From Arthrobacter sp. MYb214 (GTDB lineage Bacteria > Actinomycetota > Actinomycetes > Actinomycetales > Micrococcaceae), in NCBI RefSeq assembly GCF_002979865.1, contig NZ_PCPZ01000002.1, positions 124,001 through 188,000 of the forward strand: a stretch of 64,000 nucleotides of DNA, written 5' to 3'. Position numbers and translations under genes: made by a program. This document shows positions 8,308-50,427 of the stretch, in pieces. Position 1 is the stretch's first letter. Each line of letters begins with the position of its first letter. The notes under the pieces were generated by a model that was not told where the DNA came from, searched no databases, and saw only the letters and a list, made by a program, of their open reading frames with translations.

Positions 8308-8350
8308 CGCTCAGCAGCACCATCCGCGTAGTGATGGACCGGAGAAAGGA

Positions 8351-8920: not shown

Positions 8921-9125
8921 GGAATCTATCCTGCACCTCGTTGCCCATAGTTGCTAGAGCTTGGATTCACCGTCGGGATGATGCCTGCCATTGCTTGCCC
9001 GATGGGCGGCAGGCCGTGGCTGGAGACCGTGGAGCAATTTCCTGCTCCGGAACATCATGAAATGACACGCCACGGATCATGGCGAAGAGCGCGGCCGGCC
9101 GTCGGCGGGCATCAATGCCGGCAGG

Positions 9126-11224: not shown

Positions 11225-11968
11225 CTAGTAGAGCTTGTTGGCTCCACCATCTGCCATGAGAGTTTGCCCGGTGACGTACTTGGCGTCATCCGAGAGCAGG
11301 AAGGCGACCACTGGTGCGACGTCGGCTTCCGGATCGCCGAAGCGGCCCAGCGGAACCTTGGCCAGCGACTGCTTGTACAGGTCAGGGAAGGCCTCGCTCC
11401 AGGCCTTGACGCCGTCGGTCAATGCCATGGGGGAGACCACGTTGACGTGGATGTTATTGGCGGCCCATTCGTTGGCGGTCACGCGGGACAAGCCTCGGAT
11501 GGCTTCCTTGGCCGAAGCATAGGCCGCCTGGGTCGGCTGGCCGACCATGGCCGAGCCGGAACCGAAGTTCACAATCGAACCGCCGTTGTCCTTCAGATGC
11601 GGGTAGACGGCGAGCATGAACTGGCGGGTGGCCACAAAGCCGGTGTTGAAGGACAGATCCCAGGCAGCCTGGTCCAGATCGGTGAACGGTGCCTGGCGCG
11701 AGGCATGGGCGTTGTTCACCAAGCCGTTCAGTCCGCCGAAGTTCTCCACGGCCGCGGCAACGGCTGCATCTGCGGTTTCCTGTTTGCTGACATCGCCAGC
11801 GATGAAGATCACCGAGTCGCCGAATTCTTCTGCCAGCGCGGCACCGGCCTCGGCATTCAGATCCACAGCCACGACCTTGGCTCCGCGGCGAGCCAGGACT
11901 CGCGAGATCGCTCCGCCAATGCCGGACGCGCCCCCGGTGACAATGACGACCTTGTTCTCAAGCTGCAT
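11225..11968 (-). CDS. Short-chain dehydrogenase/reductase
   Basis: A 247-residue classical SDR, an NAD(P)-dependent oxidoreductase of the cytoplasm. The cofactor motif TGGASGIG is at ~11-18, DVSKQE at ~59-64, NNAHAS at ~86-91, the catalytic Ser in NFGSGSAM at ~137, and YASAK at ~150-154. The C-terminus YVTGQTLMADGGANKLY is typical. In NNAHAS the usual Gly after NNA is His. The ATG follows AAGGGAGAATTTC, a good ribosome site. An Asp at the end of the second strand (AVDLN) favours NAD. The substrate is unknown. Confidence 0.9.
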   Translation of the reverse strand: MQLENKVVIVTGGASGIGGAISRVLARRGAKVVAVDLNAEAGAALAEEFGDSVIFIAGDVSKQETADAAVAAAVENFGGLNGLVNNAHASRQAPFTDLDQAAWDLSFNTGFVATRQFMLAVYPHLKDNGGSIVNFGSGSAMVGQPTQAAYASAKEAIRGLSRVTANEWAANNIHVNVVSPMALTDGVKAWSEAFPDLYKQSLAKVPLGRFGDPEADVAPVVAFLLSDDAKYVTGQTLMADGGANKLY

Positions 11969-12113
11969 GAAATTCTCCCTTCGGCGGTACCAGAACCGCC
12001 ACGGTCCAAGCGCCGATTACCCGACGTCATTCCGGAGTCTACCGCAGCAAGAATCGTTCGGGGAGCGCAGTCCCAGTGGAAGATTATCCGATATTGACTA
12101 GCGGAAATGGTGC

Positions 12114-12495
12114 TCACCTGCTACCGGATTCTCCAGCTTCCTCATTCAATTGGGCGATGAAACGGGAGATGCGCGCAGCCCTGGCCTTCTCCGTCTTGGC
12201 GATCATCAGCTGGTGCAGTATGTGATAACGCGGCTGGGACTTCAGCGCCTCAAAAACCGCCTTGGCCGCCGGATGAGCATCCAGCGCGCGCTGCAGATTC
12301 GCGGGGACCTGTGCAGTCGCCTGTCCTTGGTGGGCGCGATCCCACCGGCCATCGGCTTTGGCCTTGTCGATCTAGGCCTGTCCACGAGGGCGTATCCTGC
12401 CCTGGGCCATCAGTTCCTGGACGAACTGGGTGTTCTTTTCGGACCAGACGGATGATTTGCGCCGGGGAGTGAAGCGCTGCAGGAACGGCAGAGCT
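12114..12495 (-). pseudogene. Broken YdeI-like gene (copy 2)
   Basis: Read on the minus strand, this encodes FLQRFTPRRKSSVWSEKNTQ, then RIRPRGQA, an amber stop, IDKAKADGRWDRAHQGQATA, and on to HQLMIAKTEKARAARISRFI. It is nearly the same as the intact copy at 14008-14574, in which the stop position reads RGQTEIDK. The first ~80 codons are missing upstream of FLQ (about 12495). It is therefore a 5'-deleted gene that also carries an in-frame stop. It lies on the same strand as copy 3, so the two act as long direct repeats around the TIR gene. Confidence 0.85.
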
Positions 12496-12694
12496 CGACC
12501 AACGCGTCAAACACCAAGATTTCACCGCTGTTAGAGAGCGAGATAAACTTCGAGAGATTCCCAACGAGCGGCAATCCGTTGTAATACTGTCCCGGCGAGC
12601 GGCGAGAGTATAGATACAGCCTTGGTCTCCGTCTTTCTACGACATAACAGGAAGGTTGTTCGACGGGGTCCGACTAGTCTGGGAAGATTGAAGC

Positions 12695-13552
12695 ATGAAC
12701 GTACGCTTGCAGATTTCAGCCTCACAATTGGGCACCCGACTTGACGAAGCTATAGCTCAAGGCAAAAACCTCATTGAGAGTAGTGGTCAAGATGACATAG
12801 ACGTTTTATCTGCCGGGTACCAAACGTGGGATCGGCGAAATCAACTCCTTTTGGATGCAAGTTTCCATACTAAAGGATTCTTCACGAGTGGCCCAAAGAA
12901 TGACTACTTGGATTTTCGAGGGCTTAATTATGCTTTCGGACTGGAAGTAGCTGAATCAGTAACCGTCGATGGGGTCCGAGAGGATATTTTAACTAAGTTG
13001 AACCGGCTAAACGAGCTGAAAAGTAATCTGGGATTCTACGCTCTGGAACCAGAAATCCAAGCCGATAGTGCGAACGTTGCTGAAACAGCTGGGGACAAGC
13101 CATCAGAGATTTTCGTCATTCACGGTCGCGCTGATGCTCCACGGCTTGAAGTGGTGAACTTGATTCTCCGTGCCACCTCGCACCAGCCAATCGTACTCAT
13201 GGAGCAGCCAAACCAAGGCAGAACCATCATCGAAAAACTTGAGGAGCATCTTGGGAAGACTGCGGGCTTTGCCGTGGTAATTGCTACCGGAGACGACGAA
13301 GGTCGACTAGCAGGTACCTCTGAGCTTCAGCTACGGGCCCGACAGAATGTAATCCTTGAACTTGGCTATGCAATGGGACGCTTGGGTCGACAGAACGTAA
13401 CCATCCTGCATGAAGAGAATGTCGATCTTCCATCGGATATAAGCGGCGTCGCATACTATCCATTGGATTCGCACGGAGGCTGGCAACGTCGGTTACTCGG
13501 CGACTTGAAAGCCGCCGGATTCACAGTGAATGCAGAGGCCATATTGGGTTAA
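12695..13552 (+). CDS. TIR-like nucleotide-binding (CAP12/Pycsar-type) effector protein
   Basis: A 285-residue protein. The C-terminal half (~135-280) is a TIR-like domain: SEIFVIHGRADAPRLEVV, EQPNQGRTIIEKLEEH, FAVVIATGDDEGRLAG, RARQNVILELGYAMGRLGR, and GGWQRRLLGDLKAAGF. This is the domain found in bacterial nucleotide-binding and CBASS/Pycsar effectors, several of which degrade NAD+ when triggered. The N-terminal ~125 residues match the alpha-helical sensor-like part often fused to it. No cyclase gene adjoins, so a stand-alone abortive-infection role is inferred. The gene is AT-richer than its neighbours and lies between two ydeI copies. Confidence 0.8.
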   Translation: MNVRLQISASQLGTRLDEAIAQGKNLIESSGQDDIDVLSAGYQTWDRRNQLLLDASFHTKGFFTSGPKNDYLDFRGLNYAFGLEVAESVTVDGVREDILTKLNRLNELKSNLGFYALEPEIQADSANVAETAGDKPSEIFVIHGRADAPRLEVVNLILRATSHQPIVLMEQPNQGRTIIEKLEEHLGKTAGFAVVIATGDDEGRLAGTSELQLRARQNVILELGYAMGRLGRQNVTILHEENVDLPSDISGVAYYPLDSHGGWQRRLLGDLKAAGFTVNAEAILG

Positions 13553-14007: not shown

Positions 14008-14574
14008 TTAGTCAGCGCTGTGATTCAACTGTGAGATGAAACGGGTGATGCGCGCAGTCCTGGTCTTCTCCATCTCGGCAATCATGAGCTGGTGCAGGAT
14101 GTGATAGAGCGGCTGGGACTTCAATGCTTCAAACGCCGCCTTGGCGGCAGGCTCAGCATCCAACGCGCGCTGCAGGTCCTCAGGGACCTGGGCCGTTGCC
14201 TGCTCCTGGTAGGCGCGATCCCACCGGCCATCGGCTTTGGCCTTGTCGATCTCAGTCTGACCGCGCGGACGCATCCTGCCTTGGGCGATCAGCTCCTGGA
14301 CGAACTGGGTGTTCTTTTCGGACCAGACGGAGGCTTTGCGCCGGGGAGTGTAGCGCTGCAGAAATGTCTTCTCATCGTTGCTACGCCGCTGTCCGTCGAT
14401 CCAGCCGCTGCATAAGGCTTCCTGCAACGCGTCGGCAACCAGCAATGAGGTCGGTTCGGTGGTGCCTTTCTTGGCTACGAGCAGCCACACGCCATCGCTA
14501 GTTTCTTCGTTTTCATCCAGCCAAGAGCGCCACGCATCAACGTCCTTGAGTATCAACGGATTGTCATAGTCCAT
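14008..14574 (-). CDS. YdeI/OmpD-associated family protein (copy 3)
   Basis: A 188-residue intact family member: WRSWLDENEETSDGVWLLVA, LCSGWIDGQRRSNDEKTFLQ, YTPRRKASVWSEKNTQF, and HQLMIAEMEKTRTARITRF. The start at 14574 (MDYDNP) was chosen by comparison with copy 1 (MDPQDA); an in-frame ATG at 14595 would add MARTIIA. The nucleotide sequence is very close to the broken copy at 12114-12495, which points to a recent duplication. Confidence 0.8.
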   Translation of the reverse strand: MDYDNPLILKDVDAWRSWLDENEETSDGVWLLVAKKGTTEPTSLLVADALQEALCSGWIDGQRRSNDEKTFLQRYTPRRKASVWSEKNTQFVQELIAQGRMRPRGQTEIDKAKADGRWDRAYQEQATAQVPEDLQRALDAEPAAKAAFEALKSQPLYHILHQLMIAEMEKTRTARITRFISQLNHSAD

Positions 14575-14737
14575 GGCAATTATTGTCCTGGCCATGGGTG
14601 CTGAGCGCGAGGGATGGGCAGGATGAGGGTAATAGAGTCAATCAAAAGTAATCGGGGCGCAGGCATTGCGGTGTACTCACACTAGACTTAACTGGAAGTT
14701 ATCCAGTTCTTATTGGTTTGCGTTCTTGGAGGTTATA

Positions 14738-19222: not shown

Positions 19223-19576
19223 GTGGTGAAAAAGACCGTAGCGGATGAATACGAGATGTACCGTGTACAGAAGTTGGGCTTCCTGGGGCGTAAGGACAAG
19301 ACCGGCATCGTCTATAACCAGAACATCACGCTCAAAGGTATTCCGGAGGAAGCACTGGAGTACCAGGTGAACGGCAAGTCGGCGTTGGAATGGATTATTG
19401 ACCGCTATCAAGTCTCGGTTCATAAATCATCCCAGCTCCGTAATGACCCGAACGACTATTCGCGAGAGGTTGGAAACCCTCGATACATTATTGATTTGAT
19501 CAAGCGAATCATCACAGTATCTTTGGAGACCAACAAAATCGTTGCTAATCTCCCGGCGCTTGAAATCATAGAGTAA
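19223..19576 (+). pseudogene. C-terminal segment of the type ISP enzyme, separated by a single TAA
   Basis: This 117-residue frame is in phase with the preceding gene and begins at the first codon after its TAA (GTG GTG AAA). It reads KKTVADEYEMYRVQKLGF, then ITLKGIPEEALEYQVNGKSA, LEWIIDRYQV, NDPNDYSREVGNPRYIIDL and a final helix. That is the usual last domain of type ISP and related R-M proteins, not a separate family. Joined to the upstream part the chain would be about 1612 residues, close to full-length LlaBIII-like enzymes. Translation could restart at the GTG by coupling, but there is no ribosome site of its own. Confidence 0.8.
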
Positions 19577-19645
19577 TTGCGTTGATTCTATGTCTGGAAG
19601 GTGTCCTTCATTCTAAGGCACCAATGTATGGCGTATTTTAGTGTC

Positions 19646-20275
19646 ATGACAAGTTGGGAAGTTTCTCGACATCCAGAATGGGACATGATGTATGCCGCTG
19701 GCCTGACAGTGCGTGAAATAGCTGATTTGTGTCATGCTAACGTGGCCACAGTTCACCTGCATTTTCGTGTCAGGGAAAAGTACACGCCAGGGGTACACGA
19801 AATCCATGCCGTTGCTTTGGGTAAACGAGACCCTGACCGGCCTTCGACGAGATGGCGGCAGCGTCTCTCCGAAGTGCTCACATTCCAGGAAGCTCACCAC
19901 CGGTTGCCGGACAGTCGGGCCGAAGAGGAGGAGGAACGCTTTCTAGCTCGATGGCTTGCGACACAACGCAATGCCTATCGAAAAGGACGATTGTCAGCGG
20001 CGAAAGTTATTCTCCTTGACGGGGTGAAACGGTGGCAAGTCAACTTGTCGCAACGACGCCGCGACGAACACTGGCGAACCATGCTGGAAGCAGTGAGAAT
20101 TTTCGTCGTTTCTACTGGCCACATGCCTCGTTATAGAACTTACGAGACAGAGGAAGAGCGTGCCTTAGGTGTTTGGCTACACAACCAGCATCAAGGACGC
20201 ATTGAGAACACCTTGCAACCATGGCGACTGGCCGCCCTAAACAACGCTGTTCCGGAGTGGCGTAGCCGAGCCTAA
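19646..20275 (+). CDS. HTH plus helicase-associated (HA) domain protein
   Basis: A 209-residue protein. The N-terminus (PEWDMMYAAGLTVREIADLC, then HANVATVHLHFR) looks like a resolvase-type helix-turn-helix. Two helicase-associated repeats follow: WRQRLSEVLTFQEAHHRLPD ... ARWLATQRNAYRKGRLS at about 69-125, and HWRTMLEAVRIFVVSTGHMP ... VWLHNQHQGRI at about 142-195. HA domains are thought to bind nucleic acid and in actinobacteria often occur beside helicases and R-M genes, which fits the type ISP neighbour. The start is uncertain (19628 or 19646), with no clear ribosome site. Its exact role is unknown. Confidence 0.6.
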   Translation: MTSWEVSRHPEWDMMYAAGLTVREIADLCHANVATVHLHFRVREKYTPGVHEIHAVALGKRDPDRPSTRWRQRLSEVLTFQEAHHRLPDSRAEEEEERFLARWLATQRNAYRKGRLSAAKVILLDGVKRWQVNLSQRRRDEHWRTMLEAVRIFVVSTGHMPRYRTYETEEERALGVWLHNQHQGRIENTLQPWRLAALNNAVPEWRSRA

Positions 20276-20440
20276 GCCAGATACCGTATTTCAACCAATA
20301 AGGAGTTCTAAGAAGAACATTGGAGCACTTCGATGCCGTCAAACAAACGGCGAGGTTTCGAATTCCTTATCGAGTGTTATCCAAACCTGGATTGGACCGA
20401 TGGAACAACGAGGGGTTCCCGCCGGTATAGACTTTCTATT

Positions 20441-21310
20441 ATGAATTCATCAAAACCAATAACTCCTCCAGCAGTCCAGAGATACTGGAATGCTGTTTCC
20501 AATATCTTGCGTATTGAATCGCAAGAAATTGCCGGTTTAGTGAATCACATTGGGACCAGAGGAACGGCCGATGAGAACTCGATAATTAAAGTCCTGGACA
20601 AGGTATTACCGCCGTCCACCCGTGTTTCCAACGGGGAAGTCATCGACTCGGATGGACGAATATCTGCGCAGATGGATGCACTCGTACTATCGAATACTTC
20701 GCATCCAGTCCTTTTTGGCCAGACCGCAGACGAGTTGATTTTTCCAGTTGAATCGGTTCTTTTGGCCATTGAGGTTAAAGGAAATTTGAGTAAGGCGGAT
20801 GTTCAGAAAGATATCGTGGAAAAAGTCCGGAAGCATTATAATTTGAATAGCTCTCACGAATTACGCCCGGTATTTGCTGTATTCGCGCATGAGGCGACGT
20901 CTCATCCCAGAACTGTCGCGAAATGGTTTCATGACTTGCCGGAAGATGCCCGCCCGGAATTTTTTCTAGTGAATGATTCAGCGCTGTTCGGAATTCATAA
21001 CTCCAACTCAACTGACGGATACCAAATTGTCATGCCCTTTGCACCAAAAGCCGGGGAGAACGAGGCAATGGAACTCGCTCAGCTCGGAGGATTCGAAGCA
21101 CAGTTCTGGAGGCCTATGAACCTGCCAACGGGTCAACAAGTGCGAGTCGATCATGGGGCAGGGATGCTGTTATTCATCAAGGCTGTTTTGGACGTCCTTA
21201 GCGAAAGAGGATTCGCCGATGCAGCTTGGCTAGAACGATATTTGGACAAGGTGAGCACCAAGAGAATTCGTTACGTTAAGGACAACGAACCTGTCATGGA
21301 ACTTCAGTAA
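20441..21310 (+). CDS. DUF6602-like protein with a possible nuclease core
   Basis: A 289-residue protein. The pattern HIGTRGTADENSIIKVLDKV, STRVSNGEVIDSDGRISAQM, DALVLSN and VESVLLAIEVKGNLSKAD fits the DUF6602 family. The spaced Asp (QMD) and ExK (EVK) on adjacent strands resemble a PD-(D/E)xK nuclease core, so DNA cleavage is possible but unproven. The ATG at 20441 (MNSSKP) was chosen because the family block begins soon after; an upstream ATG at 20333 would add an unusual Arg-rich stretch. GC is lower than in the host genes. Its 3' end overlaps the convergent PIN-like gene by 17 nt. Confidence 0.6.
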   Translation: MNSSKPITPPAVQRYWNAVSNILRIESQEIAGLVNHIGTRGTADENSIIKVLDKVLPPSTRVSNGEVIDSDGRISAQMDALVLSNTSHPVLFGQTADELIFPVESVLLAIEVKGNLSKADVQKDIVEKVRKHYNLNSSHELRPVFAVFAHEATSHPRTVAKWFHDLPEDARPEFFLVNDSALFGIHNSNSTDGYQIVMPFAPKAGENEAMELAQLGGFEAQFWRPMNLPTGQQVRVDHGAGMLLFIKAVLDVLSERGFADAAWLERYLDKVSTKRIRYVKDNEPVMELQ

Positions 21311-21806
21311 CAAGTGTAATGGCCTCAGCCTCCAAAAAGTCCTTCACTGTGCAGCAGGCGATTCCAAGGAAGATGCAGGCTTCTGACACAGTACATCGAT
21401 CCTCTATTGTCCACTCTTCATCGGAGACGACGATGACCTCGTAAGACGTGGCTAGTTGCTGGGCTAGGGCAATTGTAACGATAGCTTGTTGCTGATCGGT
21501 TTCCTCATTATTGATATCTAGAATGTGCTGCTGGGCTGGATTCAATCCAAATTTAGCGCACACAGAATGGACACTTTGGTAGCGAACTTCTGCTGCTTCT
21601 TTTAGACTCCGCCAACCAGCTGCAGCCCAAATCGTAACAGGCTCGCCTTTGGCATACTCTTGTCGTTCATTTTTTGTAGCTTCACAGTAAATAACACGGG
21701 ATTTGTCGCGCAGATCTGTGAGCTTTTCAGTAAGCGTGGCATCCAGAGGTGCCAACTTGTTCAAGGTCTGTAACGCCGAGCTGTCGAGTACATAAATCTG
21801 AGTCAC
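21294..21806 (-). CDS. PIN-like/DUF4411 family protein, probable toxin partner
   Basis: A 170-residue protein starting YVLDSSALQTLNKL, where Asp and Ser lie at the end of the first strand as in PIN-fold ribonucleases. VIVVSDEEWTIEDRCTVSEA, near the C-terminus, supplies further acidic residues. The pattern matches DUF4411, a PIN-related group often found next to ImmA/IrrE-type genes and predicted to be toxins. The GTG start is 2 nt after the stop of the upstream gene on the same strand, so the two are translationally coupled. A ribosome site (GGGAGG) lies inside the end of the upstream gene. Confidence 0.65.
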   Translation of the reverse strand: MTQIYVLDSSALQTLNKLAPLDATLTEKLTDLRDKSRVIYCEATKNERQEYAKGEPVTIWAAAGWRSLKEAAEVRYQSVHSVCAKFGLNPAQQHILDINNEETDQQQAIVTIALAQQLATSYEVIVVSDEEWTIEDRCTVSEACIFLGIACCTVKDFLEAEAITLVTEVP

Positions 21807-21808
21807 CT

Positions 21809-22978
21809 CTACACGGCCTCCCGGCCCAGTGTAAGGAAACTAAGGAGCTCGTTTTGGGACTTAAGATTAAGACTCTTACGTACTTCGATCTCCGAGAGAT
21901 TGGCGTTCTCAAGTGCCTCGCCAAATAGCCTGGCTATGCCGGTCCCGTAGGCGGCAATTCGCTTTTGTGCTCGTGTCTGGCCTCCACGTGCAAATCCGTC
22001 TTGCGCGGGCTCAACAAAACTGCCCGAAACTGCATCTACAAGGCCAGCACTTGCGAGACCCAACTCCTTGAGCCGGATAGCCACACTAAAGTAACTGCAG
22101 TAGAAGTAACCCGCGATGCGTCGAACAGATTCGATGTCGTCGTCATGAATAAATACCTTCTTGAGGTACTTTTCCATGTAAGTCGTCAGTTCCTCCTTAG
22201 GCATGAGAAACGCAGCTGCGAAACGGTTGCACCAAGATTCTTCGCTGGTGCGGGACTGTAGGTCATGCTTATCACATGCCTTATCGACTCCGCGTAGCAA
22301 ATGTGCGAGTTCGTGTAGGAGCGTGAATGAACGAGCGGCTGGATGTTTTGCAGCAGAATTTACAAAGATGAGCGGTACGTAATCGTGGTGGAGTGTAAAG
22401 CCTCGCAATGAGTCACCTTGGATCGGCAACAGGTTGGTCATCACGCCTTGGCCTTCTAAGGCTTCTCTGATCGACACAAACAACTGGGATTTGCTTTTGA
22501 TCCTCCTGCGGCGGCTGCTTACATTCCCCCATTGCAGCCAAGCGGCAACAGCTAGGGCTGCTGTCTCTGGATTCGCGTTTGAATGAATGGAGGGGTAATC
22601 GACACGTCCGTGTACGAGCTCAGTGCTTATTTTTGCAGCGGCTTGCTGGCGTCTCTTCGCGTCTCTTAGCGCTGCACGTTCGTCAGGGTTTAGTTCCCGG
22701 GCCTGTCCTGAGTTGGACATGGGAGCCCGGAAATTTGCGTCCACGGAATGCCGACTTATTGTGGGTGGTGTGGGGAGGGCAAAGAAATAGATCGAGCGCC
22801 GAGTAGCTTTCGCAATGAAATTGAGGTCTTCTTCAGCAATGGTGAGGGGGCCTGTAAGAAGTGTGGATTGCCCTGCATGCGTACTAAGTCCAACTGCTTC
22901 TAGGATCTCGGCCCTATTTACTCCGGCATCCTCCAACGCCCACTCAAGAACATCTCCTTGAACGGTGGCATTAGTCAT
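21809..22978 (-). CDS. ImmA/IrrE family metallopeptidase with an HTH-like N-terminus
   Basis: A 389-residue protein. The N-terminal ~75 residues resemble an XRE-type helix-turn-helix region (VLEWALEDAGVNRAEILEAV), ending in YFFALPTPPT, the usual linker of this group. The peptidase core holds ARSFTLLHELAHLLRG, the HExxH zinc motif, and further on EESWCNRFAAAFLMPKEEL with the third ligand. Family members cleave repressors of mobile elements or act as the regulatory half of toxin-antitoxin pairs. Here it is first in a two-gene operon with the PIN-like protein, so a toxin-antitoxin or stress-sensing unit is inferred. Confidence 0.8.
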   Translation of the reverse strand: MTNATVQGDVLEWALEDAGVNRAEILEAVGLSTHAGQSTLLTGPLTIAEEDLNFIAKATRRSIYFFALPTPPTISRHSVDANFRAPMSNSGQARELNPDERAALRDAKRRQQAAAKISTELVHGRVDYPSIHSNANPETAALAVAAWLQWGNVSSRRRRIKSKSQLFVSIREALEGQGVMTNLLPIQGDSLRGFTLHHDYVPLIFVNSAAKHPAARSFTLLHELAHLLRGVDKACDKHDLQSRTSEESWCNRFAAAFLMPKEELTTYMEKYLKKVFIHDDDIESVRRIAGYFYCSYFSVAIRLKELGLASAGLVDAVSGSFVEPAQDGFARGGQTRAQKRIAAYGTGIARLFGEALENANLSEIEVRKSLNLKSQNELLSFLTLGREAV

Positions 22979-23203
22979 GTTGGTAATCCTAGGCTATTTT
23001 ATATTTTTCTGAAGTAAGTGTGCAGTGTCTATCAGCGGAAATTGAGGCAGATATGTTTAATTTTACCCGTAGAACAGACAATTAGGGAGTAACTAATCTG
23101 GTGGAAGCGCGAGTTCTACGTTCATCCATTGATTTAGTCTGCGAATCTACAGAATTGTTTTTGACGCGCTTCGGTAGTGAGCTGGGCCTTTCTTAGGTTG
23201 TCC

Positions 23204-24253
23204 TTATAGGCTAGAAGTCAGCCGTTGGAGTTCAATGGCCAACCTGCTTTCGGTGATATGCCTATCAGGATAACCAGAGATCTGCCGACCGCTTGCATGC
23301 ATTTTTGCGCTGACCCGAATCTTGCCGTCGTTGGAGGCAATTGCACAAACGCGTACCGCTTTCTTAGCGCCATGGTTAGCGCCAATGAGACAGTGCAGGT
23401 GATCTGCGTGGGTCACCCGTTCCCAGTCACGACTGCCTTGTACGGCCTGAGCGAGAGCGTTTCCGAATTCCGTGACGCTCGAGTGGCGCTTCGCCGGATC
23501 GCGACTGAGCGATTTACGCACGACCGAGCCGACGGCACGGGAAATGTGTGGCGCAATCGATCGAAGTTCACGCAGCGAACCGGCCATAATTTTATCGTTC
23601 TGTTCCTGACGAGAAATTTGGTGGTCAACCGGATACTCGCCGCTCAATAGATAAAATGTTGTTGCTGCCAGTGAGTAGACATCGGTTGCCTTGGAGCACT
23701 TGCCGTTCGCGCCGAGTGCTTCAGGCGCGACTGTGCAAAAACTTCCATTCGGGGGAGTGATTCCATCGGAATCGAGCAGATGACAGAATCCGAGGTCGCC
23801 CAATACGGTCTGATCGTTGTTCAACATGGCATTGCCTGGTTTGACGTCTCGGTGAAGCATGCCCGCGCGATGAATACGGTCCAGCCCAGACGCGATTTGC
23901 TGTACTCTCTGCGCCACTTCTGAGGGGAGCAGTCCATGCGGCCTGCAGTGGTTTTCCAGGTCGCCGCCGTTCATTAAAGAAGTGACAATAAAACGGAGGT
24001 CACTGTTGATCACGATATCGGCATTCAACACCTCAAGTAAGTATCGCGACCTAAGCTGTTGAAGCAAGCGGGCCTCTTGCCAGGGCATGCCAAGGGTGTC
24101 ATGAGTCGGGTCGAGAATTTTCACCGCAACGATGGCATCAAGATGCCTGTCATGGGCTTTGTAAACTGAACCGCCGGCACCATCACCCAATTTTTTAGTC
24201 AGTTCGTAGCGATCATTAATTGTGGTCCCCAAAGGAATTTCTGACAGATTCAC
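23204..24253 (-). CDS. Soluble serine/threonine protein kinase
   Basis: A 349-residue Hanks-type kinase. The glycine loop GDGAGGSVY is at 23-31, the ATP lysine in AVKIL at 45, catalytic loop HRDVKPGN at 134-141, and GDLG in place of DFG at 152-155; APEALG replaces the APE motif. The kinase core ends near residue 270, leaving a short basic tail of ~75 residues with no transmembrane helix and no PASTA repeats, unlike housekeeping PknA/PknB. It starts with GTG and shares a 23-bp divergent gap with a RuvC-like gene. A signalling role in an accessory module is inferred. Confidence 0.8.
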   Translation of the reverse strand: MNLSEIPLGTTINDRYELTKKLGDGAGGSVYKAHDRHLDAIVAVKILDPTHDTLGMPWQEARLLQQLRSRYLLEVLNADIVINSDLRFIVTSLMNGGDLENHCRPHGLLPSEVAQRVQQIASGLDRIHRAGMLHRDVKPGNAMLNNDQTVLGDLGFCHLLDSDGITPPNGSFCTVAPEALGANGKCSKATDVYSLAATTFYLLSGEYPVDHQISRQEQNDKIMAGSLRELRSIAPHISRAVGSVVRKSLSRDPAKRHSSVTEFGNALAQAVQGSRDWERVTHADHLHCLIGANHGAKKAVRVCAIASNDGKIRVSAKMHASGRQISGYPDRHITESRLAIELQRLTSSL

Positions 24254-24276
24254 AGTTACAAGGATAAAGTAAAACT

Positions 24277-24726
24277 ATGCGTGTACTTGGAATATCCGTA
24301 GAACCTGCTGGTGGTAAGCCGAAGGTCCATGTCGTTACTGTTGAATCGAAATCGCCCGATTTTGAAGTTGTTGAGAGCTTCACGCTTCACACGACCGCGA
24401 CTGTACCTGCCGAACAAGCTGTCAATCTTGCGCAGCTGCTCCAAGGACGGCTTCCGGGGATGACGTTCGATTCGGCCGTCATCAAGACTGCAGGTGCTTC
24501 ACCAGTAGCGCGGAGGAGCCGCGCCGCGTTCCAGCGAGCCCATGCGGAGGGAGCCATTCTGTTCGTCCTGCACGAGATTGGTGAAATTCGCGTGGAAGCC
24601 AAGGACGCTCAAGGGCTGGCAACGCTTGCTGGAAAGAAGAAAGCTGATTTAGAGGCTAAAGCGCAGGGGCTACATTCTGCGCGCAAGTTCCACGATGCTG
24701 TCTACGCTGCTTTGGCATTGCTCTGA
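24277..24726 (+). CDS. Small RuvC/RNase H-fold-like protein
   Basis: A 149-residue protein not assigned to a named family. The order of predicted elements fits a RuvC-like RNase H fold: strand 1 MRVLGISVEP, strands 2-3 KVHVVTVES and FEVVESFTLHT, helix AEQAVNLAQLLQG, strand 4 FDSAVIKTAG, a helix, strand 5, and a final helix with HDAVYAALA. RuvC has Asp in strand 1 (GIDPG); here it is Ser (GISVEP), so catalysis may be lost, while the late DA is kept. It is divergent from the kinase and its tail overlaps the convergent gene by 57 nt. Confidence 0.5.
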   Translation: MRVLGISVEPAGGKPKVHVVTVESKSPDFEVVESFTLHTTATVPAEQAVNLAQLLQGRLPGMTFDSAVIKTAGASPVARRSRAAFQRAHAEGAILFVLHEIGEIRVEAKDAQGLATLAGKKKADLEAKAQGLHSARKFHDAVYAALALL

Positions 24727-25269
24727 CGAATCCCAATCGCATTCGACATGAACGACATCCAATTCTGTGATGCGAATCTCGGGGCCAGTCTCTACCAGCG
24801 GGTTGAGCACTAATCCTACAAGCGAAAATTCATTGCCATTATCTCGCAATTTTCGAGCTGCACGCGCGAGTAGCGTCCCGCTGGCGTAGTTGATGTCAAA
24901 GATAATTGTCGGGCCGTTGCGGCTACCGTGAATAGAGGGTTCCAGCATCATCGCAGCTCCCAAAACCCGCTCTGCCTGGGGACTCGCGGCGACAACACCG
25001 AATCCCGCATACGCTCTTGCCGTTCTCAGTAGAACTTCAGCACACTGTCGAAGAGCTACCGCAGAGTCATTGTTGTGAACAACCGCTGTACCGTGATTCA
25101 TGATGCTGAGTAAGTCCACAAGTAGCTCCCTTCGGCTCAGACTAATAAAAAATGCTCGACTCATAACAGTATCGGCACATTTGTTCCTGAAAGGAATCTC
25201 TGGGATCCAATTCCGTGCGTTTCTCAAGTAAGGGTACCGACTAGCCGCATCTTCAATGAAACTTGACAC
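24670..25269 (-). CDS. Phosphoribosyltransferase-like protein
   Basis: A 199-residue protein starting at GTG. Residues ~115-155, PTIIFDINYASGTLLARAAR followed by KLRDNGNEFSLVGLVLNPLV, resemble the PRPP-binding loop and following helix-strand of type I phosphoribosyltransferases (usual form: DDxxTTGxTL). The second Asp and the TTG are replaced, so PRPP binding is doubtful. An earlier GFGVVAASPQAERVLGAAMM resembles the strand-helix before the loop. It lies next to a RuvC-like gene and a kinase and probably belongs to the same accessory module. Family assignment is tentative. Confidence 0.5.
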   Translation of the reverse strand: MSSFIEDAASRYPYLRNARNWIPEIPFRNKCADTVMSRAFFISLSRRELLVDLLSIMNHGTAVVHNNDSAVALRQCAEVLLRTARAYAGFGVVAASPQAERVLGAAMMLEPSIHGSRNGPTIIFDINYASGTLLARAARKLRDNGNEFSLVGLVLNPLVETGPEIRITELDVVHVECDWDSSEQCQSSVDSIVELARRM

Positions 25270-25459
25270 TATTCGTGCTGCTGGAACATTACGATCGACA
25301 GTTGAGGACGCATTGGAACAAACGTGTCGCGGAGAATGTAACAGGGGAATCTGAAAGTGGAATTCTTCGTAACTGAGGAGCGCATCATAGGTATCTTGCC
25401 AATGGATATTCGAAACAGTTAGAACTACTCAAGTGTTTCTTGCTGGCAATATTGGGATC

Positions 25460-26089
25460 ATGAGTATGGATGACGATCGTGAACTTATCGACGAGATTCG
25501 GAAATGGGTACTGCCCCCGGATATGGAGATGCGACCTAAATCGGAACAAATTGCAATTGGGACTGCACTGCTCCACCGTTTGAGAGAAATGCTCGCGAAC
25601 GGTCCAGAATCGCTCAATCGTCATGTGTCCCGGCGACAAGTCAGTCCGGAGCTCCCGACGCTCAACGGTGAGGTAGTCATCGCCGCTGCCTGGTCAGAGG
25701 ACGCAGGGGGTACGTTGTCGCAAGCGACATCGGGTGGCTGGGATACACGGACAAAAAGATACGACGACACGAGTACGCGTCTTGTCAAGGCCCTGCGTGC
25801 TGTGGCACCGAAGCAGCTTGTCGACCGTTTGGAGACGGCACTAGAATTGCGGCACTTCGTCGTTCATGGAATTTGGGTTGACGGATCCTTCGTCAAACAT
25901 CCGGTGACCCGGAAAGCCTATGACTTTGTTTCGATGAAGCGTAGTTACCGTACTGACGCTCCTGAAAAGGACATCAAAGCTTTTATGCCTAATTCATTGA
26001 AGTGGCTGGCTGCGGAGTTCTGGGAGCTCGAGGACGAAATCGAGAAGCTCCACTCCCAGGTGATCTTCGGCAAAGACTATACTGGCTAG
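25460..26089 (+). CDS. Hypothetical protein with a HEPN-like Rx4H motif
   Basis: A 209-residue, mostly helical protein. RHFVVHG at 131-137 contains Arg131 and His136 separated by four residues, at the end of a helix (LVDRLETALEL). This is the RNase motif (Rx4-6H) of HEPN toxins and abortive-infection proteins. A second helix rich in acidic residues closes the protein (WELEDEIEKLHSQVIF). No other family signature was found, so the HEPN call rests on one motif. The start may be 25433, 25460 or 25466. It has coding-like composition but sits alone downstream of the kinase/RuvC/PRTase group. Confidence 0.5.
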   Translation: MSMDDDRELIDEIRKWVLPPDMEMRPKSEQIAIGTALLHRLREMLANGPESLNRHVSRRQVSPELPTLNGEVVIAAAWSEDAGGTLSQATSGGWDTRTKRYDDTSTRLVKALRAVAPKQLVDRLETALELRHFVVHGIWVDGSFVKHPVTRKAYDFVSMKRSYRTDAPEKDIKAFMPNSLKWLAAEFWELEDEIEKLHSQVIFGKDYTG

Positions 26090-40367: not shown

Positions 40368-41234
40368 GTGAGCGCACGCATTCTCGACGGCAAGGCCACC
40401 GCGGCCGCCATCAAGCAGGAACTGGCCGAACGCGTTGCCAAGCTCAAGGCTGCCGGGCACACCACCGGACTGGGCACCATCCTGGTTGGCAACGACCCGG
40501 GCTCGGCCTGGTATGTCGGTGGCAAGCACAAGGACTGCGCCGAAGTGGGCATCGAGTCGATCCGAGTGGACCTGCCCGAGGAAACCACCCAGGACGAGCT
40601 GCTGGCCAAGGTGCGCGAGCTGAACGAGAACCCGGACTGCACCGGCTACATCGTGCAGCTGCCGCTGCCCAAGCACATCGATACGGACGTGATCCTCGAA
40701 GCTATGGATCCGGCCAAGGATGCCGACGGCCTGCACCCGATGAACCTGGGCCGCCTGGTCGCCAACGTCAACCGCCCGATGGCCTCCCCGCTGCCATGCA
40801 CCCCGCTGGGCTGCGTGGAACTGCTGGCCCGCCACGATATCGACCTGAACGGCAAGCACGTGCTGGTCCTGGGCCGCGGCGTGACCATCGGCCGCCCTGT
40901 CGGCCTGCTGCTGACCCGCCGCGACGTGAACGCGACCGTCACCCTGGCCCACACCGGCACCACCAATCTTCCTGAACTACTCGCCCAGGCCGATGTCATC
41001 ATCGCCGCTGCCGGCGTGCCGCACATCATCAAGGCCGACGCCATCAAGCCCGGTGCGATCGTGCTCGACGTGGGCGTTTCCCGCGTGGATGGCAAGGTCA
41101 CCGGCGACGTGGACCCGGCTGCCGCCGAGGTCGCGTCGTGGATCTCGCCGAACCCGGGCGGCGTGGGCCCGATGACCCGCGCGATGCTGCTGAACAACGT
41201 GGTCGAGGCCGCAGAGCGCAACGCCGCCAACTAG
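40368..41234 (+). CDS. folD: Bifunctional methylene-THF dehydrogenase/methenyl-THF cyclohydrolase
   Basis: Interconverts 5,10-methylene-THF and 10-formyl-THF using NADP. The 288 residues show [18 protein letters not shown] with the catalytic Lys (~55), [11 protein letters not shown], the [12 protein letters not shown] block (~118-129), [16 protein letters not shown] (~166), and PGGVGPMT (~262). In the NADP loop the usual GRSxIVGxP reads GRGVTIGRP. The GTG start follows GGAAGGAACA. It is governed by the ZTP riboswitch. Its last 9 codons (3' end) are repeated 2 kb downstream, beyond the AAA-DUF4435 gene. Confidence 0.95.
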
Positions 41235-41241
41235 ACGCGAA
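41208..41241 (+). repeat. Left direct repeat (attachment-like), within the folD end
   Basis: A 34-bp segment covering the last codons and stop of folD. It matches 43242-43275 with two differences, both C here and G there. Confidence 0.8.
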
Positions 41242-41252
41242 TGAACTCAAAC

Positions 41253-41290
41253 ACCAACGGCCTGCCATGATGGCAGGCCGTTGGTCTTTT
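41253..41290 (+). terminator. Terminator of folD
   Basis: A perfect 15-bp stem (ACCAACGGCCTGCCA with its complement at 41271-41285) has a TGA loop and is followed by CTTTT. It lies inside the inserted segment, just after the left repeat. Confidence 0.9.
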
Positions 41291-41500
41291 ACGTCCAGCA
41301 GCGGTATTTACTAGGAGACGTAATTCCTCTGGACGCAAATTGGTTTTAAGGCCGTTCCGAAAGCATTTAGATTTGCGTTTCCCTGATTAATGTTAGTGGT
41401 TCATCAGATTTAATAGGTGACGTCCTTTTCTGTAAGTGTGTCGTTGGCTTTTCGTTTGGCTAATAAACGAATGATGGTTGGGTATCGTAATATCGGTCTC

Positions 41501-43123
41501 ATGACTCAAATTGGCGAGGTGCCCACACCTTTGGCTCAGTGGAATATTCCAGTGTTTACGGGTGGTTTCTGCAGCGTGCAGGTGAGTGCGGGAGAGGTGT
41601 TGACGATCCTAGGGGCGAATGGCTCGGGTAAATCTGCTCTGGCTTCGTGGATGCCGAGGAATTCGCAGGCAACGGCTATCCGGAGAGTGTTAGCGCAACG
41701 AAAACTGTGGTTTACTCAGTCGGGACCTTCCATTACTCCGGCAGACCGAAGAACGCGATTTGCCCAAATCACGCATTGGGATCAGGAATTTAGTTCGCGC
41801 TATCTTGATCACAGTGATTCACAGCGCTCGGGGATTGCCTTGTTCGATATGCTAGCCAAGATCAACCAGGAGAACAGGGCACGCGTAGATCTGTATGAGG
41901 CGGGGTCGAGCACTGAAGATGTTACCCGGAGGATAGGTCCACGTGTTCTCGACACGTTCAATACAGTGCTTCAAACTTCGGGCCTGGAAATTGAAATAGG
42001 CGTGGATTCTACAGAGAATTTTTTTGCGAAGCATCTCAATTCTGACGTGACATATCCGATTCATTTGATGTCCGATGGTGAGAAGAGCGCGCTATTGCTC
42101 GCCGCTGAAATTATTACTGCCCCGTCCGGGGTGACGTTTATTATCGATGAGCCGGAGAGACATCTGCATCGAGCAATTTCCGATGAACTCATAAAAACCA
42201 TTATTGCTACACGTAATGATTGTGCTTTTGTCGTGTTGACCCATGACCTGGACCTCGCCGCGAGCCTTTCTGAACAAAGAGGGAAAGTGCTAACCGTGTT
42301 TGGTGTGCGGTGGGAAGGCGAACAAGCCATGCAGTGGGATCTGCATGAGATTGCACAGGACGACTCCTTGCCTGAAATCGCCCGACAGGCCATTCTTGGT
42401 GGGCGGAAGGAGATTCTCTTCATTGAAGGAGAAACGACGAGCCATGATCTGAGCCTTTACAAGGTGCTCTTCCCAGATTGGCTACTGGTGCCTAGCGGAG
42501 GATGCGATACGCTCATCCGGTCAGTGTCTGGCCTACGGAATAGTGCGAGTTTCCATTGGGTCAGAGCACGCGGTTTGGTTGATGGGGACTGGCGATCTGA
42601 GCAGGAAATTGAATCCTTATTTAGTCTTGGTATTCATGTTCTGCCGGTGAGCGAAATTGAGAACCTCTACTACACTTCGGAAGTGCTGCAGGCAGTAGCA
42701 GAGCAACAAGCTTCGACGTTTGGCTACGATCCTCAGGTCAAAGTTGAGGAGGCCAAGAGCGCGGCCATGAAGGCGCTAGGAAAGGACGGGACGTTAGAAA
42801 GACTGACCGGACAGCTTTCGAAATCTGTGGTCGCGAGGAAACTAGTCGAGTACATGCCAGATGTGGTTGATGAGAACGCAATCGAGATCAACTTTGACTC
42901 GCCATTTCCACAAATTCTCAGGCAGATGAAGGATCATGTTACTGCTTGTGCGTATGACGAGCTGATCAAAGCGCTCCCGATTCGTAACACCAGCATGAGA
43001 ATTGAGATTGCTAGGCACCTCGGTTTTCAGAGTATCCAGGACTATGAAACTGCGGCCCTTCATCGCATCCGCAATTCTCCGCCGTTGCAAATAGATTTGC
43101 ACATCCCCATCGAGAAGCAGTGA
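41501..43123 (+). CDS. AAA ATPase fused to a DUF4435 (TOPRIM-like) domain; PARIS/OLD-type defence candidate
   Basis: A 540-residue protein. The N-terminal ABC-like ATPase domain has GANGSGKS (38-45), SDGEKSALLLA as the signature, FIIDEPERHLH as Walker B, and LTHDLDLAAS as the switch His. From ~310 a DUF4435 domain follows: ILFIEGETTSHDLSLYKVLF with the first acidic residue, LVDGDWRSEQEIE with the DxD, and VLPVSEIENLYY. AAA and DUF4435 are the two parts of the PARIS anti-phage system (AriA and AriB), which also exists as a fusion, and the pair resembles OLD nucleases. The gene is AT-rich and alone inside the folD cassette. The start could also be 41474. Confidence 0.75.
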   Translation: MTQIGEVPTPLAQWNIPVFTGGFCSVQVSAGEVLTILGANGSGKSALASWMPRNSQATAIRRVLAQRKLWFTQSGPSITPADRRTRFAQITHWDQEFSSRYLDHSDSQRSGIALFDMLAKINQENRARVDLYEAGSSTEDVTRRIGPRVLDTFNTVLQTSGLEIEIGVDSTENFFAKHLNSDVTYPIHLMSDGEKSALLLAAEIITAPSGVTFIIDEPERHLHRAISDELIKTIIATRNDCAFVVLTHDLDLAASLSEQRGKVLTVFGVRWEGEQAMQWDLHEIAQDDSLPEIARQAILGGRKEILFIEGETTSHDLSLYKVLFPDWLLVPSGGCDTLIRSVSGLRNSASFHWVRARGLVDGDWRSEQEIESLFSLGIHVLPVSEIENLYYTSEVLQAVAEQQASTFGYDPQVKVEEAKSAAMKALGKDGTLERLTGQLSKSVVARKLVEYMPDVVDENAIEINFDSPFPQILRQMKDHVTACAYDELIKALPIRNTSMRIEIARHLGFQSIQDYETAALHRIRNSPPLQIDLHIPIEKQ

Positions 43124-43241
43124 GGTCGAGAGCCCACTGGATAAACCTTACAGAGAAATCCAGCGAGGTCCGGTCCTAAGGAAATCTTGGTGCGGTGCGG
43201 TGGGATGAGAACCCGATTACCCGATTGTGGTGTCCATTAAA

Positions 43242-43275
43242 GCCGCAGAGCGCAACGCCGCGAAGTAGACGCGAA
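43242..43275 (+). repeat. Right direct repeat (attachment-like), duplicate of the folD end
   Basis: A copy of 41208-41241. Read in the folD frame it would end AAERNAAK and stop, against AAERNAAN in folD, so it comes from a slightly different folD allele. Confidence 0.8.
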
Positions 43276-43313
43276 AAACCGGCAGTCCGCCAATGGTGGG
43301 CTGCCGGTTTTTT
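43274..43313 (+). terminator. Terminator after the right repeat
   Basis: AAAAACCGGCAG pairs with CTGCCGGTTTTTT around an inner CC/GG stem. It has an A-run before and a T-run after, so it can serve both the plus strand and the convergent transporter gene. It may be the terminator of the original folD gene. Confidence 0.85.
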
Positions 43314-43327
43314 GATCCCTGCAGATC

Positions 43328-44719
43328 CTACAGCGCGTCCTGGGGCACGGGCTGCCCCGCGGTCCGCTTGTCGAAGACCAGCGCGCCGACTTCCTGCTCG
43401 GCCTGGTTGCCGATACCCAAGTCGATGCCGCTGCGATCACGCACCATGCTGACCGCCGCCAGCGATATTGCGGTAAGCGCGAACAGGTACCAGCCGACCG
43501 CCGTGGTCCCGCCGGTGGCCTGCACCAGCGCGGTGGCGATCATCGGGGCGAACGCCCCGCCCAGTATCGCGCCGAAAGCGTAGGAAATGGAAACCCCGGA
43601 GAAGCGCACCGAGGCGGGGAACAGCTCGGAGTACAACGCGGCCTGCGGACCGTAGGAGAAGCCCAGACCGATGGCGAACAACGCGAACGCCACGTAGAGC
43701 AGCGGCAGGCTAGCGGCGTTGACCAGCCAGAATAGCGGGAAGATGCACAGCAGCTGGCTGATGAAGCCGATCTGGTAGGTGCGCTTGCGCCCGATCCTGT
43801 CGGCCACGACCCCGGAGAGCAGGGTGAAGGCGAACCACATGACTGCACCGAAGGAGACGGCCAGCAGCACCTGCGTGCGGGTGAAGCCCACAGGCCCCTC
43901 AGGGTCCGTCATATAGGCCTGCAGGAATCCGCCGGTGGTCATGTAGCCGGCGGCATTGTTGCCAGCGAAAATCAGCGCGGCAACCAGCACCAGCAGCCAG
44001 TGCTTCTTGAACAGCACCACGATCGGAACGCGGGTCTGTGCCTTCTTCTGCGCGATCTCCTCGAAGACCGGGGACTCGTCCACCGAGCGGCGGATGAAGT
44101 AGCCCACCACGATCAGCACGAAGCTGAGCAGGAACGGCACGCGCCAACCCCAGGCCATGAACTGCTCGCCGGGGGAGATCACGCCGGTCATCAGCGCCAT
44201 CATTCCCGAGGCCAGCAGCATGCCCAGCGGCACGCCGAGCTGAGGGTAGGCGCCGGCCCGGGCGCGACGGTCCTTCGGGGCGTGCTCAACGGCCATCAGC
44301 ACCGCGCCGCCCCATTCGCCACCGGCGGAGATGCCCTGGATGATGCGCAAGAGCAGCAGCAGGATCGGGGCCAGCACGCCCGCGGTCTCATAGGTGGGCA
44401 GCACGCCGATCAGCGTGGTGGAGGCGCCCATGAGGGCCAGGGTGAGCACCAGCATGGCGCGCCGGCCGATTTTGTCCCCGTAGTGCCCGGCTAAGAACGC
44501 GCCCAGCGGGCGGAAGAGGAAGGAAATGCCGACGCTGGCGAAGGAGAGCAGCAGGCCGATCTGCGCGCCGGCTGGTTCGAAGAACAGGTGGGCGAAGATC
44601 AGCCCCGCTGCGGTGGCGTAGATGAAGAAGTCGTACCACTCGATGGTGGTGCCGATGACGGTGGCGAAGGCGACGCGCCGCTGGCTGGTGCCGGGGTGCC
44701 GCTGGGTGGGTGTGCTCAT
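43328..44719 (-). CDS. MHS-family MFS transporter (copy A)
   Basis: A 463-residue metabolite:H+ symporter of the major facilitator superfamily with 12 expected helices. GTTIEWYDFFIYATAAGLIF near the N-terminus is the MHS hallmark; RPLGAFLAGHYGDKIGRRAM is the first A-like loop, GEWGGAVLM follows, and ADRIGRKRTYQIG is the second-half copy. It is last in the P450 operon, 32 nt after the reductase gene, so it probably imports the P450 substrate. The copy at 49042-50427 is closely similar over its full length. Substrate unknown; MHS members carry organic acids, betaines and aromatic acids. Confidence 0.9.
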   Translation of the reverse strand: MSTPTQRHPGTSQRRVAFATVIGTTIEWYDFFIYATAAGLIFAHLFFEPAGAQIGLLLSFASVGISFLFRPLGAFLAGHYGDKIGRRAMLVLTLALMGASTTLIGVLPTYETAGVLAPILLLLLRIIQGISAGGEWGGAVLMAVEHAPKDRRARAGAYPQLGVPLGMLLASGMMALMTGVISPGEQFMAWGWRVPFLLSFVLIVVGYFIRRSVDESPVFEEIAQKKAQTRVPIVVLFKKHWLLVLVAALIFAGNNAAGYMTTGGFLQAYMTDPEGPVGFTRTQVLLAVSFGAVMWFAFTLLSGVVADRIGRKRTYQIGFISQLLCIFPLFWLVNAASLPLLYVAFALFAIGLGFSYGPQAALYSELFPASVRFSGVSISYAFGAILGGAFAPMIATALVQATGGTTAVGWYLFALTAISLAAVSMVRDRSGIDLGIGNQAEQEVGALVFDKRTAGQPVPQDAL

Positions 44720-49041: not shown

Positions 49042-50427
49042 CTAGGCGTCCTGGGTAGCCTTCACAGCATCAGCGCGGCGCTTGTCGAAGACCAGCGCGC
49101 CCACTTCCTGCTCCGCCTGGTTGCGGAAGGACAGGTCGATTCCGGCCCGGTCGCGGATCAGCGAGACCGCGGTGAACGAGATCGCGACGACGATCAGCAG
49201 GTAGATGGCCACCGCGGTGGTGCCGCCGGTCGCCTGCACCAGCGCCTGGGCGATGGTCGGTGCGAACGCGCCGCCGACGATCGCGCCGATCGCGTAGGAG
49301 ATCGAGACGCCGGAGAAGCGTACCGAGGCCGGGAACAGCTCCGAGTAGAGCGCCGCCTGCGGGCCGTAGGTCAGCCCCAGTCCGATGGAGAACAGGCCGA
49401 AGGCCAGGTAGAGCAGGCCCAGCGAGCCGGAGTTGACCAGTGCGAAGACCGGGAAGAGCGAAGCTGCCAGAATAATGAAGCCGATCTGGTAGGTGCGCTT
49501 GCGCCCGATCTTGTCGGCCAGCAGGCCAGCGACCAGGGTCATGACCAGCCATACGGCGGCGCCGAAGGCCACGGCGACCAGCACGTCGGTGCGCTCCAGC
49601 CCGACCGGGCCATCAGGGTTGGTGGTGTAGGCCTGGAAGAAGCCGCCGGTGGTCATGTAGCCTGCGGCGTTGTTGCCGGCGAAGACCAGCGCGGCAATGA
49701 GCACCAGTGGCCAGTGCTTCTTGAACAGCACCAGGATCGGCACAGCGGTCTGCGCCTTGTTCTCGCTGATTTCCTCGAAGACCGGGGACTCGTCCACCGA
49801 GCGGCGCACGAAGTAGCCGACGGCGATCAGGATAATCGACACCAGGAACGGAACGCGCCAGCCCCATTCGAGGAACGCATCGCCGGGGGAGATCACCCCG
49901 GTCATCAGCGCCATGGTGCCCGAGGCCAGCAGCATGCCCAGCGGCACGCCCACCTGCGGGTAGGAGCCTGCGCGGCCGCGGTGTCCGTCGGAGGCGTGCT
50001 CGACGGCCATCAGCACTGCGCCGCCCCATTCGCCGCCAGCGGAGATGCCCTGCAGGATGCGCAGCAGCAGCAGCATGATCGGCGCCCAGATGCCTGCGGT
50101 CTCGTAGGTCGGCAGCACGCCGATTAGCGTGGTGGCTGCACCCATCAGCGCCAGGGTCAGGACCAGCATCGCACGGCGGCCGATCTTGTCGCCGAAGTGC
50201 CCGGCCAGGAATGCGCCCAGCGGGCGGAAGAGGAAGGACAGACCGACCGAGGCGAAGGAGATCAGCAGCGCGATCTCCTGGCCTGCTGGTTCGAAGAACA
50301 GCTGGCTGAAGACCAGGCCTGCTGCGGTGGCGTAGATGAAGAAGTCGTACCACTCCACGGTGGTTCCGATGACCGTCGCGAAAGCTACGCGGCGCTGGTT
50401 GGCCTTGGCGGCCTTGGATTGTGTCAT
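49042..50427 (-). CDS. MHS-family MFS transporter (copy B)
   Basis: A 461-residue transporter with the same landmarks as copy A: GTTVEWYDFFIYATAAGLVF, RPLGAFLAGHFGDKIGRRAM, ADKIGRKRTYQIG, and the shared C-terminus NQAEQEVGALVFDKR. Most positions are identical between the two by eye, so they are recent paralogs with probably related substrates. The ATG follows GGGAAGCACT. It is divergent from the LysR at 50555 across a 127-bp gap and has no P450 genes with it. Confidence 0.9.
   Translation of the reverse strand: MTQSKAAKANQRRVAFATVIGTTVEWYDFFIYATAAGLVFSQLFFEPAGQEIALLISFASVGLSFLFRPLGAFLAGHFGDKIGRRAMLVLTLALMGAATTLIGVLPTYETAGIWAPIMLLLLRILQGISAGGEWGGAVLMAVEHASDGHRGRAGSYPQVGVPLGMLLASGTMALMTGVISPGDAFLEWGWRVPFLVSIILIAVGYFVRRSVDESPVFEEISENKAQTAVPILVLFKKHWPLVLIAALVFAGNNAAGYMTTGGFFQAYTTNPDGPVGLERTDVLVAVAFGAAVWLVMTLVAGLLADKIGRKRTYQIGFIILAASLFPVFALVNSGSLGLLYLAFGLFSIGLGLTYGPQAALYSELFPASVRFSGVSISYAIGAIVGGAFAPTIAQALVQATGGTTAVAIYLLIVVAISFTAVSLIRDRAGIDLSFRNQAEQEVGALVFDKRRADAVKATQDA

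Follow-up and report, generated by a model that had tools for sequence, protein, structure and literature searches.

Two-gene PARIS has been described as a hexameric sensor from which a Toprim nuclease that cuts tRNA is released (PMC12409363); single-gene fusions have also been reported (PMC9122126), and whether the fused forms act differently is stated to be unclear (PMC10568477). In this study we analysed a 64,000-nucleotide stretch of Arthrobacter sp. MYb214 (contig NZ_PCPZ01000002.1, positions 124,001 to 188,000; hereafter the window), in which one fused AriA-AriB (PARIS) gene stands between direct repeats of the 3' end of folD. The encoded protein agrees with the described fusions (PMC9122126) in that an AAA_21/ABC-type ATPase is followed by DUF4435 in one chain and in that it matches the AriAB model of PADLOC, but it is 27-56% identical to the homologues found here, except for a near-twin in another genome of the genus (G015), and, being fused, it would be unable to release AriB, unlike the two-gene system (PMC12409363).

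The position of the gene also recalls described classes of segment. PARIS has been placed in hotspots of P2-like phages and P4-like satellites (PMC9122126), which likewise hold a defence cassette at a variable spot, whereas the folD insert consists of one gene with nothing phage- or satellite-like inside. A cis-mobilizable element (CIME) is described as lacking integration and transfer genes while keeping attL and attR (PMC5704250); the folD insert shares the direct repeats at a gene 3' end and the lack of integrase and transfer genes, but it holds one gene, its repeat is a putative att site, and no integrase-bearing partner with the same att site was found (tyrosine recombinases only, one genome per species). 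Small variable segments with direct-repeat borders form a further class, in which 10-18% of the segments are repeat-flanked in the sets studied, the repeats are mostly shorter than 30 bp, and homologous or short-homology recombination is given as the explanation (PMC2884548). The folD insert is also short, with repeats at its borders and alleles without it in relatives; the alleles described in PMC2884548, however, occur within one species while those compared here belong to different species, and the folD repeat consists of a gene 3' end with its stop codon, the cargo being a complete, presumed defence gene. Fused PARIS and repeat-flanked small segments are already known; defence genes often lie outside any recognisable mobile element, and the layout merits a genome-wide test.

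The insert at the 3' end of folD

The segment carries the following features.

40368..41234, + strand: folD, host gene of the insertion (288 codons from the GTG at 40368, plus stop)
41208..41241, + strand: left repeat copy, the 3' end of folD including its stop codon, found by repeat search
41253..41285, + strand: terminator-like hairpin with T-run, within the insert, directly 3' of folD
41501..43123, + strand: fused AriA-AriB (PARIS) gene, 540 aa from a probable ATG start; 568 aa from the GTG at 41417
43242..43275, + strand: right repeat copy, read as the displaced folD 3' end
43274..43312, + strand: hairpin (inverted repeat) after the right copy, taken as the native folD terminator, now parted from folD

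An earlier note, made from the letters of the window, had described a 34-bp repeat of the folD end with two changes, a single AT-rich gene between the copies and a terminator after each copy, and all three were found as described. The sequence at 41208-41241 recurs at 43242-43275 with 2 mismatches and a spacing of 2034, and the repeats are not scattered in the genome, since a search of the 3.72-Mb assembly (19 contigs) with up to 3 mismatches returned these two places only (reversed control, 0). The left copy ends with the folD stop codon plus 7 bases, and the two differences fall in the final folD codons, the left copy reading Ala-Asn-stop and the right Ala-Lys-stop. The identity of folD follows from its Pfam domains THF_DHG_CYH and THF_DHG_CYH_C, with a single match per genome, 84-100% identical, in all 18 genomes of the genus. 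One long open reading frame (ORF), 41417-43123, is enclosed by the repeats; GC content of the gene is 48-53% in 400-base windows, with 64-70% in the neighbours, and Rfam and tRNA scans around the site gave no match.

The left copy is followed by the hairpin and T-run at 41253-41285 and the right copy by the inverted repeat at 43274-43312, the latter unlisted by the terminator scanner, which requires a loop of 3-8 bases where this one has 1. In G006, G007 and G008 a single folD end is followed directly by a hairpin of the kind that stands after the right copy in G000 (the genome of the window) and G015. The hairpin at 43274-43312 is therefore taken as the native folD terminator, which places the insert between folD and this terminator. 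The 41253-41285 type was found after folD only in G000 and G015 among the 18 genus genomes, and no stretch like it was found within 300 bases 3' of folD in 40 other genomes of the family (taken from 137 non-genus genomes with a FolD match, mostly those of highest FolD identity, smaller contigs left out). The insert brings to folD a predicted replacement terminator at 41253-41285.

The protein is almost certainly a fused AriAB homologue, as the earlier note had supposed from its AAA-DUF4435 fusion. Both Pfam domains lie above the cut-off of 27 bits (AAA_21, 45 bits; DUF4435, 40.6 bits), and the PADLOC AriAB model matches nearly full length (220.8 bits, E 8e-66, residues 35-528 of 546). Alignment to homologues suggests the ATG at 41501 as the start. 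In an alignment of 19 homologues (window, G260, G089 and 16 of the 18 loci from species genomes described below; both G015 copies, L124 and L133 excluded), what we take to be Walker A, the MSDGE signature and the Walker B DE, together with H254, E315, D367, D369 and E393, are invariant (19 of 19); the acidic residues E315, D367, D369 and E393 may form a putative Toprim-type site. Pulling the other way, no AriB structure came up when the DUF4435 half was used in a sequence search, and AriA was matched by the profile only weakly (E 2e-4), ranked below several ABC transporters.

The fused protein is likely to act as an anti-phage abortive system. By analogy with the family, the ABC-ATPase half would sense a phage protein and the Toprim-like DUF4435 half would then cleave host tRNA, leading to growth arrest before phage spread; since both halves form one chain, activation would proceed by a conformational or oligomer change and not by AriB release. 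This raises the question of what switches on a nuclease that here stays tethered to its sensor instead of being released as usual. A housekeeping role as an OLD-like or ABC ATPase protein is very improbable: relatives of DUF4435/OLD are diverse and the defence function is read from sequence, but against such a role stand the extent of the PADLOC match, the patchy distribution of homologues in the family (4 of 395 genomes) and their company on plasmids, where a Kocuria homologue adjoins a TIR gene and an N-6 DNA methylase gene and a 6.4-kb E. coli plasmid carries AriAB with a ToxN/AbiQ gene.

Occurrence in the genus and a second site with the same layout

Comparison of the 18 genus genomes showed that the cassette is a patchy insertion of 2.03 kb without an integrase of its own. 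AriAB is present at folD in two of them, G000 and G015, so that gene and repeats are far from universal among the relatives, and G006, G007 and G008 supply the single-copy sites expected from the insertion that the earlier note had proposed. G009 and G010 carry the repeat core once, with different sequence downstream; in the fetched stretch of the other 11 genomes the 34-bp core was unrecognisable at 9 mismatches, apart from one off-site match in G003. When the whole family set (395 genomes, one per species) was searched, the core pattern was detected in 7 genomes; each belongs to this genus and has it at folD, and only G000 and G015 have it in two copies (reversed pattern, 1 of 395). The absence of a carried integrase, likewise claimed before, agrees with the single gene in the insert and with the distance to the nearest PF00589 integrase given below.

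The two carriers are not sisters on the rpoB tree (one gene only), and the repeat of G015 measures 32 bp (97%). Between them AriAB is 98% identical in one comparison and its gene 96.9% in another, in which folD reaches 90.3%, with a dS of 0.10 for AriAB, 0.20 for the neighbouring MFS gene and 0.37 for folD; the right repeat copies agree in 33 of 34 bases and the left in 30 of 34. From these identities, dS values and repeat agreements the cassette is read as a unit that moved laterally and became joined to the resident folD at, or close to, the 3' end of that gene. Two further candidates were rejected: identity of the right copies as proof of constraint, because 33 of 33 is expected with a probability of 0.04-0.08 at the identity of the arms, and a clean recombination tract right of the cassette (G000-G015 90-96% versus 86-93% for pairs with G006), for which one comparison genome is insufficient in such a plastic neighbourhood.

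The region after folD is plastic, but as a defence hotspot, which the earlier note had suggested for small cassettes, it is not supported. The post-folD stretch varies strongly within the genus: G001 lacks both the cassette and the neighbouring block of MFS, reductase and P450 genes, whereas the stretch holds GDSL, GNAT and methyltransferase genes in G009, some 5 kb with a MarR gene besides unknown genes in G010, and a response regulator among other genes in G012. Nine post-folD proteins of G009 and G010 matched GDSL, GNAT, methyltransferase, MarR or transglycosylase-associated domains or no Pfam domain, with no clear defence family among them; one methyltransferase matches the mads_2 model (57 bits), probably as a generic methylase. 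Nor can folD be taken as a family-wide integration hotspot, because no comparable folD-end duplication was found within 11-16 kb downstream of folD in any of the 40 other family genomes; two weak partial matches, one of 18 bp in G090 (1 mismatch) and one of 23 bp in G147 (3 mismatches), are over 12 kb distant. Literature searches for folD as an integration site (where folD is indistinguishable from 'fold') and for PARIS together with the genus name Glutamicibacter gave nothing relevant, which is no proof of absence.

Within this region of the window, MFS paralogues at 43358-44688 and 49074-50402 (80%) flank the reductase/P450 block that is missing from G001. In G009 (L032 1137-5140) a folD 3' fragment of 206 bp (98%) and an MFS 3' fragment of 325 bp (90%) lie around the GDSL and GNAT/methyltransferase cargo, as would be expected if a circle of about 2.3 kb had integrated by a single crossover.

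The layout of the folD site, namely a gene, a single-gene insert and a duplicated 3' end, is repeated with unrelated sequence elsewhere in the window.

12144..12485, - strand: truncated, displaced 3' part of a YdeI-like (OmdA) gene, 342 bp, 85.7% identical to 14023-14364
12695..13552, + strand: single AT-rich TIR gene (Pfam CAP12-PCTIR_TIR, E 5e-32; PADLOC PDC-S35, 192 bits, candidate defence)
14008..14595, - strand: intact YdeI-like gene (Pfam OmdA)

Matches to the YdeI-like gene were found in 13 of the 18 genus genomes, and its flanks were viewed in six others with at least 85% identity. The short-chain dehydrogenase/reductase (SDR) gene that neighbours the truncated copy in the window adjoins the YdeI-like gene directly in G016, and in G009 and G010 does so save for an 88-113 bp remnant of a YdeI-like 3' end; in G004, G007 and G017 no such SDR neighbour was seen within 1.5 kb. 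A legible footprint, consisting of insert-free sites, a displaced gene end, a replaced terminator (at folD only) and no recombinase, is thereby met twice in 64 kb with two different one-gene cargoes, one of a known and one of a candidate defence family, and offers a simple signature for genome-wide search.

Route of arrival

As the route by which the cassette reached folD we lean towards recombination at the gene end that needed no dedicated integrase, a mechanism reconstructed from the layout. A single crossover (Campbell-type insertion-duplication) between the folD 3' end and an identical stretch on an incoming molecule would have set the cargo after folD, displaced the native 3' end to the far side and given folD its new terminator; later spread or loss would have taken place via ordinary homologous recombination of the flanks. 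The recurrence of one layout at different gene ends with unrelated sequences argues for gene-end recombination and against one att-specific integrase, and the same topology at the YdeI-like gene end speaks against an integrase specific for folD. Several observations weigh against this route: a 34-bp match is rather little for general homologous recombination, the att core of an integrase would look the same, with a clean repeat that closes a gene and takes in its stop codon, and no source molecule of the insert was seen. The match of the left copy to the host folD carries little weight, about the last 50 bases of folD in G015 being those of G007, with 51 of 288 positions differing between these two genomes over the last third of the gene. 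Furthermore, the differences between the folD genes of G000 and G001 rise from 9/540 to 18/291 (Fisher p 8e-4), so that a recombination edge may fall within folD rather than in the repeat, the change being assignable to either of the two genes. Given the short folD repeat and its clean stop-codon border, a substantial minor share of the probability stays with an integrase that we did not see, the 32-34 bp being the att core of a tyrosine or serine enzyme and the cassette a CIME-like remnant or a passenger moved in trans. With such an integrase would also agree the replacement terminator within the insert, the single-copy sites of relatives, and the right copies that the carriers share while their left copies differ.

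Against an integrase, and against the att site that the earlier note had seen in folD, stand the confinement of the core to seven genomes of one genus and the lack of a nearby enzyme: no PF00589 integrase lies closer to folD than about 48 kb in the 18 genus genomes (serine integrases were not searched for), and none closer than about 56 kb among the matches listed for the 40 family genomes. The exact core 21-mer occurs in no viral contig, the repeat core is without a clear dyad (best 10 of 18), and 76 bp of the folD end gave only short or partial matches, in 7 plasmid and 20 phage records; the best of them, to an unannotated 11.6-kb phage record (84% over query 3-59), lies for the most part in the folD coding sequence and takes in no more than the beginning of the repeat. 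Vertical inheritance of a single ancestral insertion, with repeated precise loss between the direct repeats, is improbable. Direct repeats permit precise deletion, and loss of this kind across short repeats has been discussed in the case of small variable segments (PMC2884548), but several losses would be required because non-carriers, G001, G006 and G007 among them, lie between both carriers on the rpoB tree, and the dS of AriAB is half to a third of that of its neighbours. Returning to gene-end recombination, the repeat spacings are 2034 for AriAB at folD, 1879 for TIR at the YdeI-like gene, 1681 and 2321 for the non-defence cargo of G009 at folD and MFS, and possibly 1934 for a Citrobacter AriAB; they are similar, as if circles of like size had integrated. 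The generalisation that small single-gene defence cassettes move as integrase-free units of about 2 kb, by crossover in the host gene's own 3' end, replacing the host terminator and leaving a displaced 3' fragment, is put forward tentatively and is rather doubtful at present.

AriAB homologues and other repeat-flanked segments

The four family genomes with AriAB homologues carry them in five places. The second fused AriAB of G015 (L042 9835-11481), in the same genome as the folD cassette, is 42-43% identical and has transposase-like neighbours, and the homologues of G260 and G089 lie in surroundings of mixed GC as judged by eye. A pattern-seeded search of 84,980 species genomes, which will miss many, gave 18 loci, including one in Paeniglutamicibacter terrestris with 43% identity. 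Homologues were also found in 53 of 72,556 plasmid records, 2 of 50,697 phage records and at least 12 viral contigs; on a Rothia plasmid AriAB consists of two adjacent ORFs. No direct repeats flank AriAB in G260, G089 or the second G015 copy, and among 12 other homologue loci none has a clear flanking repeat pair except L134 (Citrobacter portucalensis, 7748-9709), in which a single-gene fused AriAB lies between 28-bp direct repeats (93%). In its genome, these two places carry the repeat without a mismatch to the pattern, and one further place carries it with 3. As a second proven insertion L134 was rejected and is kept as a lead only, since no insert-free site was found and the left copy lies inside a larger imperfect palindrome. 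In L120 (Leucobacter edaphi, 6520-12774) the region of the fused AriAB gene lies between the copies of a 118-bp direct repeat (86%), which are spaced 6.1 kb.

The frequency of such pairs was estimated by self-comparison with blastn (E 1e-4; direct-repeat pairs of at least 28 bp and 80%, spacing 600-5500 bp). The whole contig of the window (C12, 657,913 bases) gave only 4 pairs, those of folD/AriAB, YdeI-like/TIR, an icd fragment and terminators around a permease gene. On this count the folD pair goes beyond chance. The first 153 kb of contig C1 gave 5, two of them inside one long ORF, one from tRNA-Lys genes, one from neighbouring ORFs of like length and one of 28 bp. At equal thresholds, 654 kb of family loci gave 6 pairs (five within one gene or neighbouring or similar genes, L086 unclassified), 272 kb of genus folD loci gave 3 (G009 twice, G015), and other genus stretches gave none in 358 kb and none in 121 kb.

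The terminator pair (L187 6982-8762; G000:C12:209982-211762, outside the window) is a duplicated 33-bp hairpin around one amino-acid permease gene. The permease at C12:209982/211730 is missing from 7 of the 9 relatives checked; of four such junctions that were read, those of G004 and G014 have one right-type terminator and those of G007 and G015 another terminator with 320-420 bp of other sequence, and this case appears older and less clear. The icd pair is a fragment of 115-118 bp of the monomeric isocitrate dehydrogenase gene, at 2051-2168 and 3398-3515 of the window, downstream of the intact gene in AT-rich DNA; it is perhaps a decayed insertion, too decayed to read. Next to the TIR site, an AT-rich island at 14666-26089 contains a Type ISP restriction-modification enzyme split into frames of 1518 and 117 aa, together with a helicase-associated domain protein, a DUF6602/NucC-like protein, DUF4411, an M78 peptidase and a PD-T4-6-like protein kinase.

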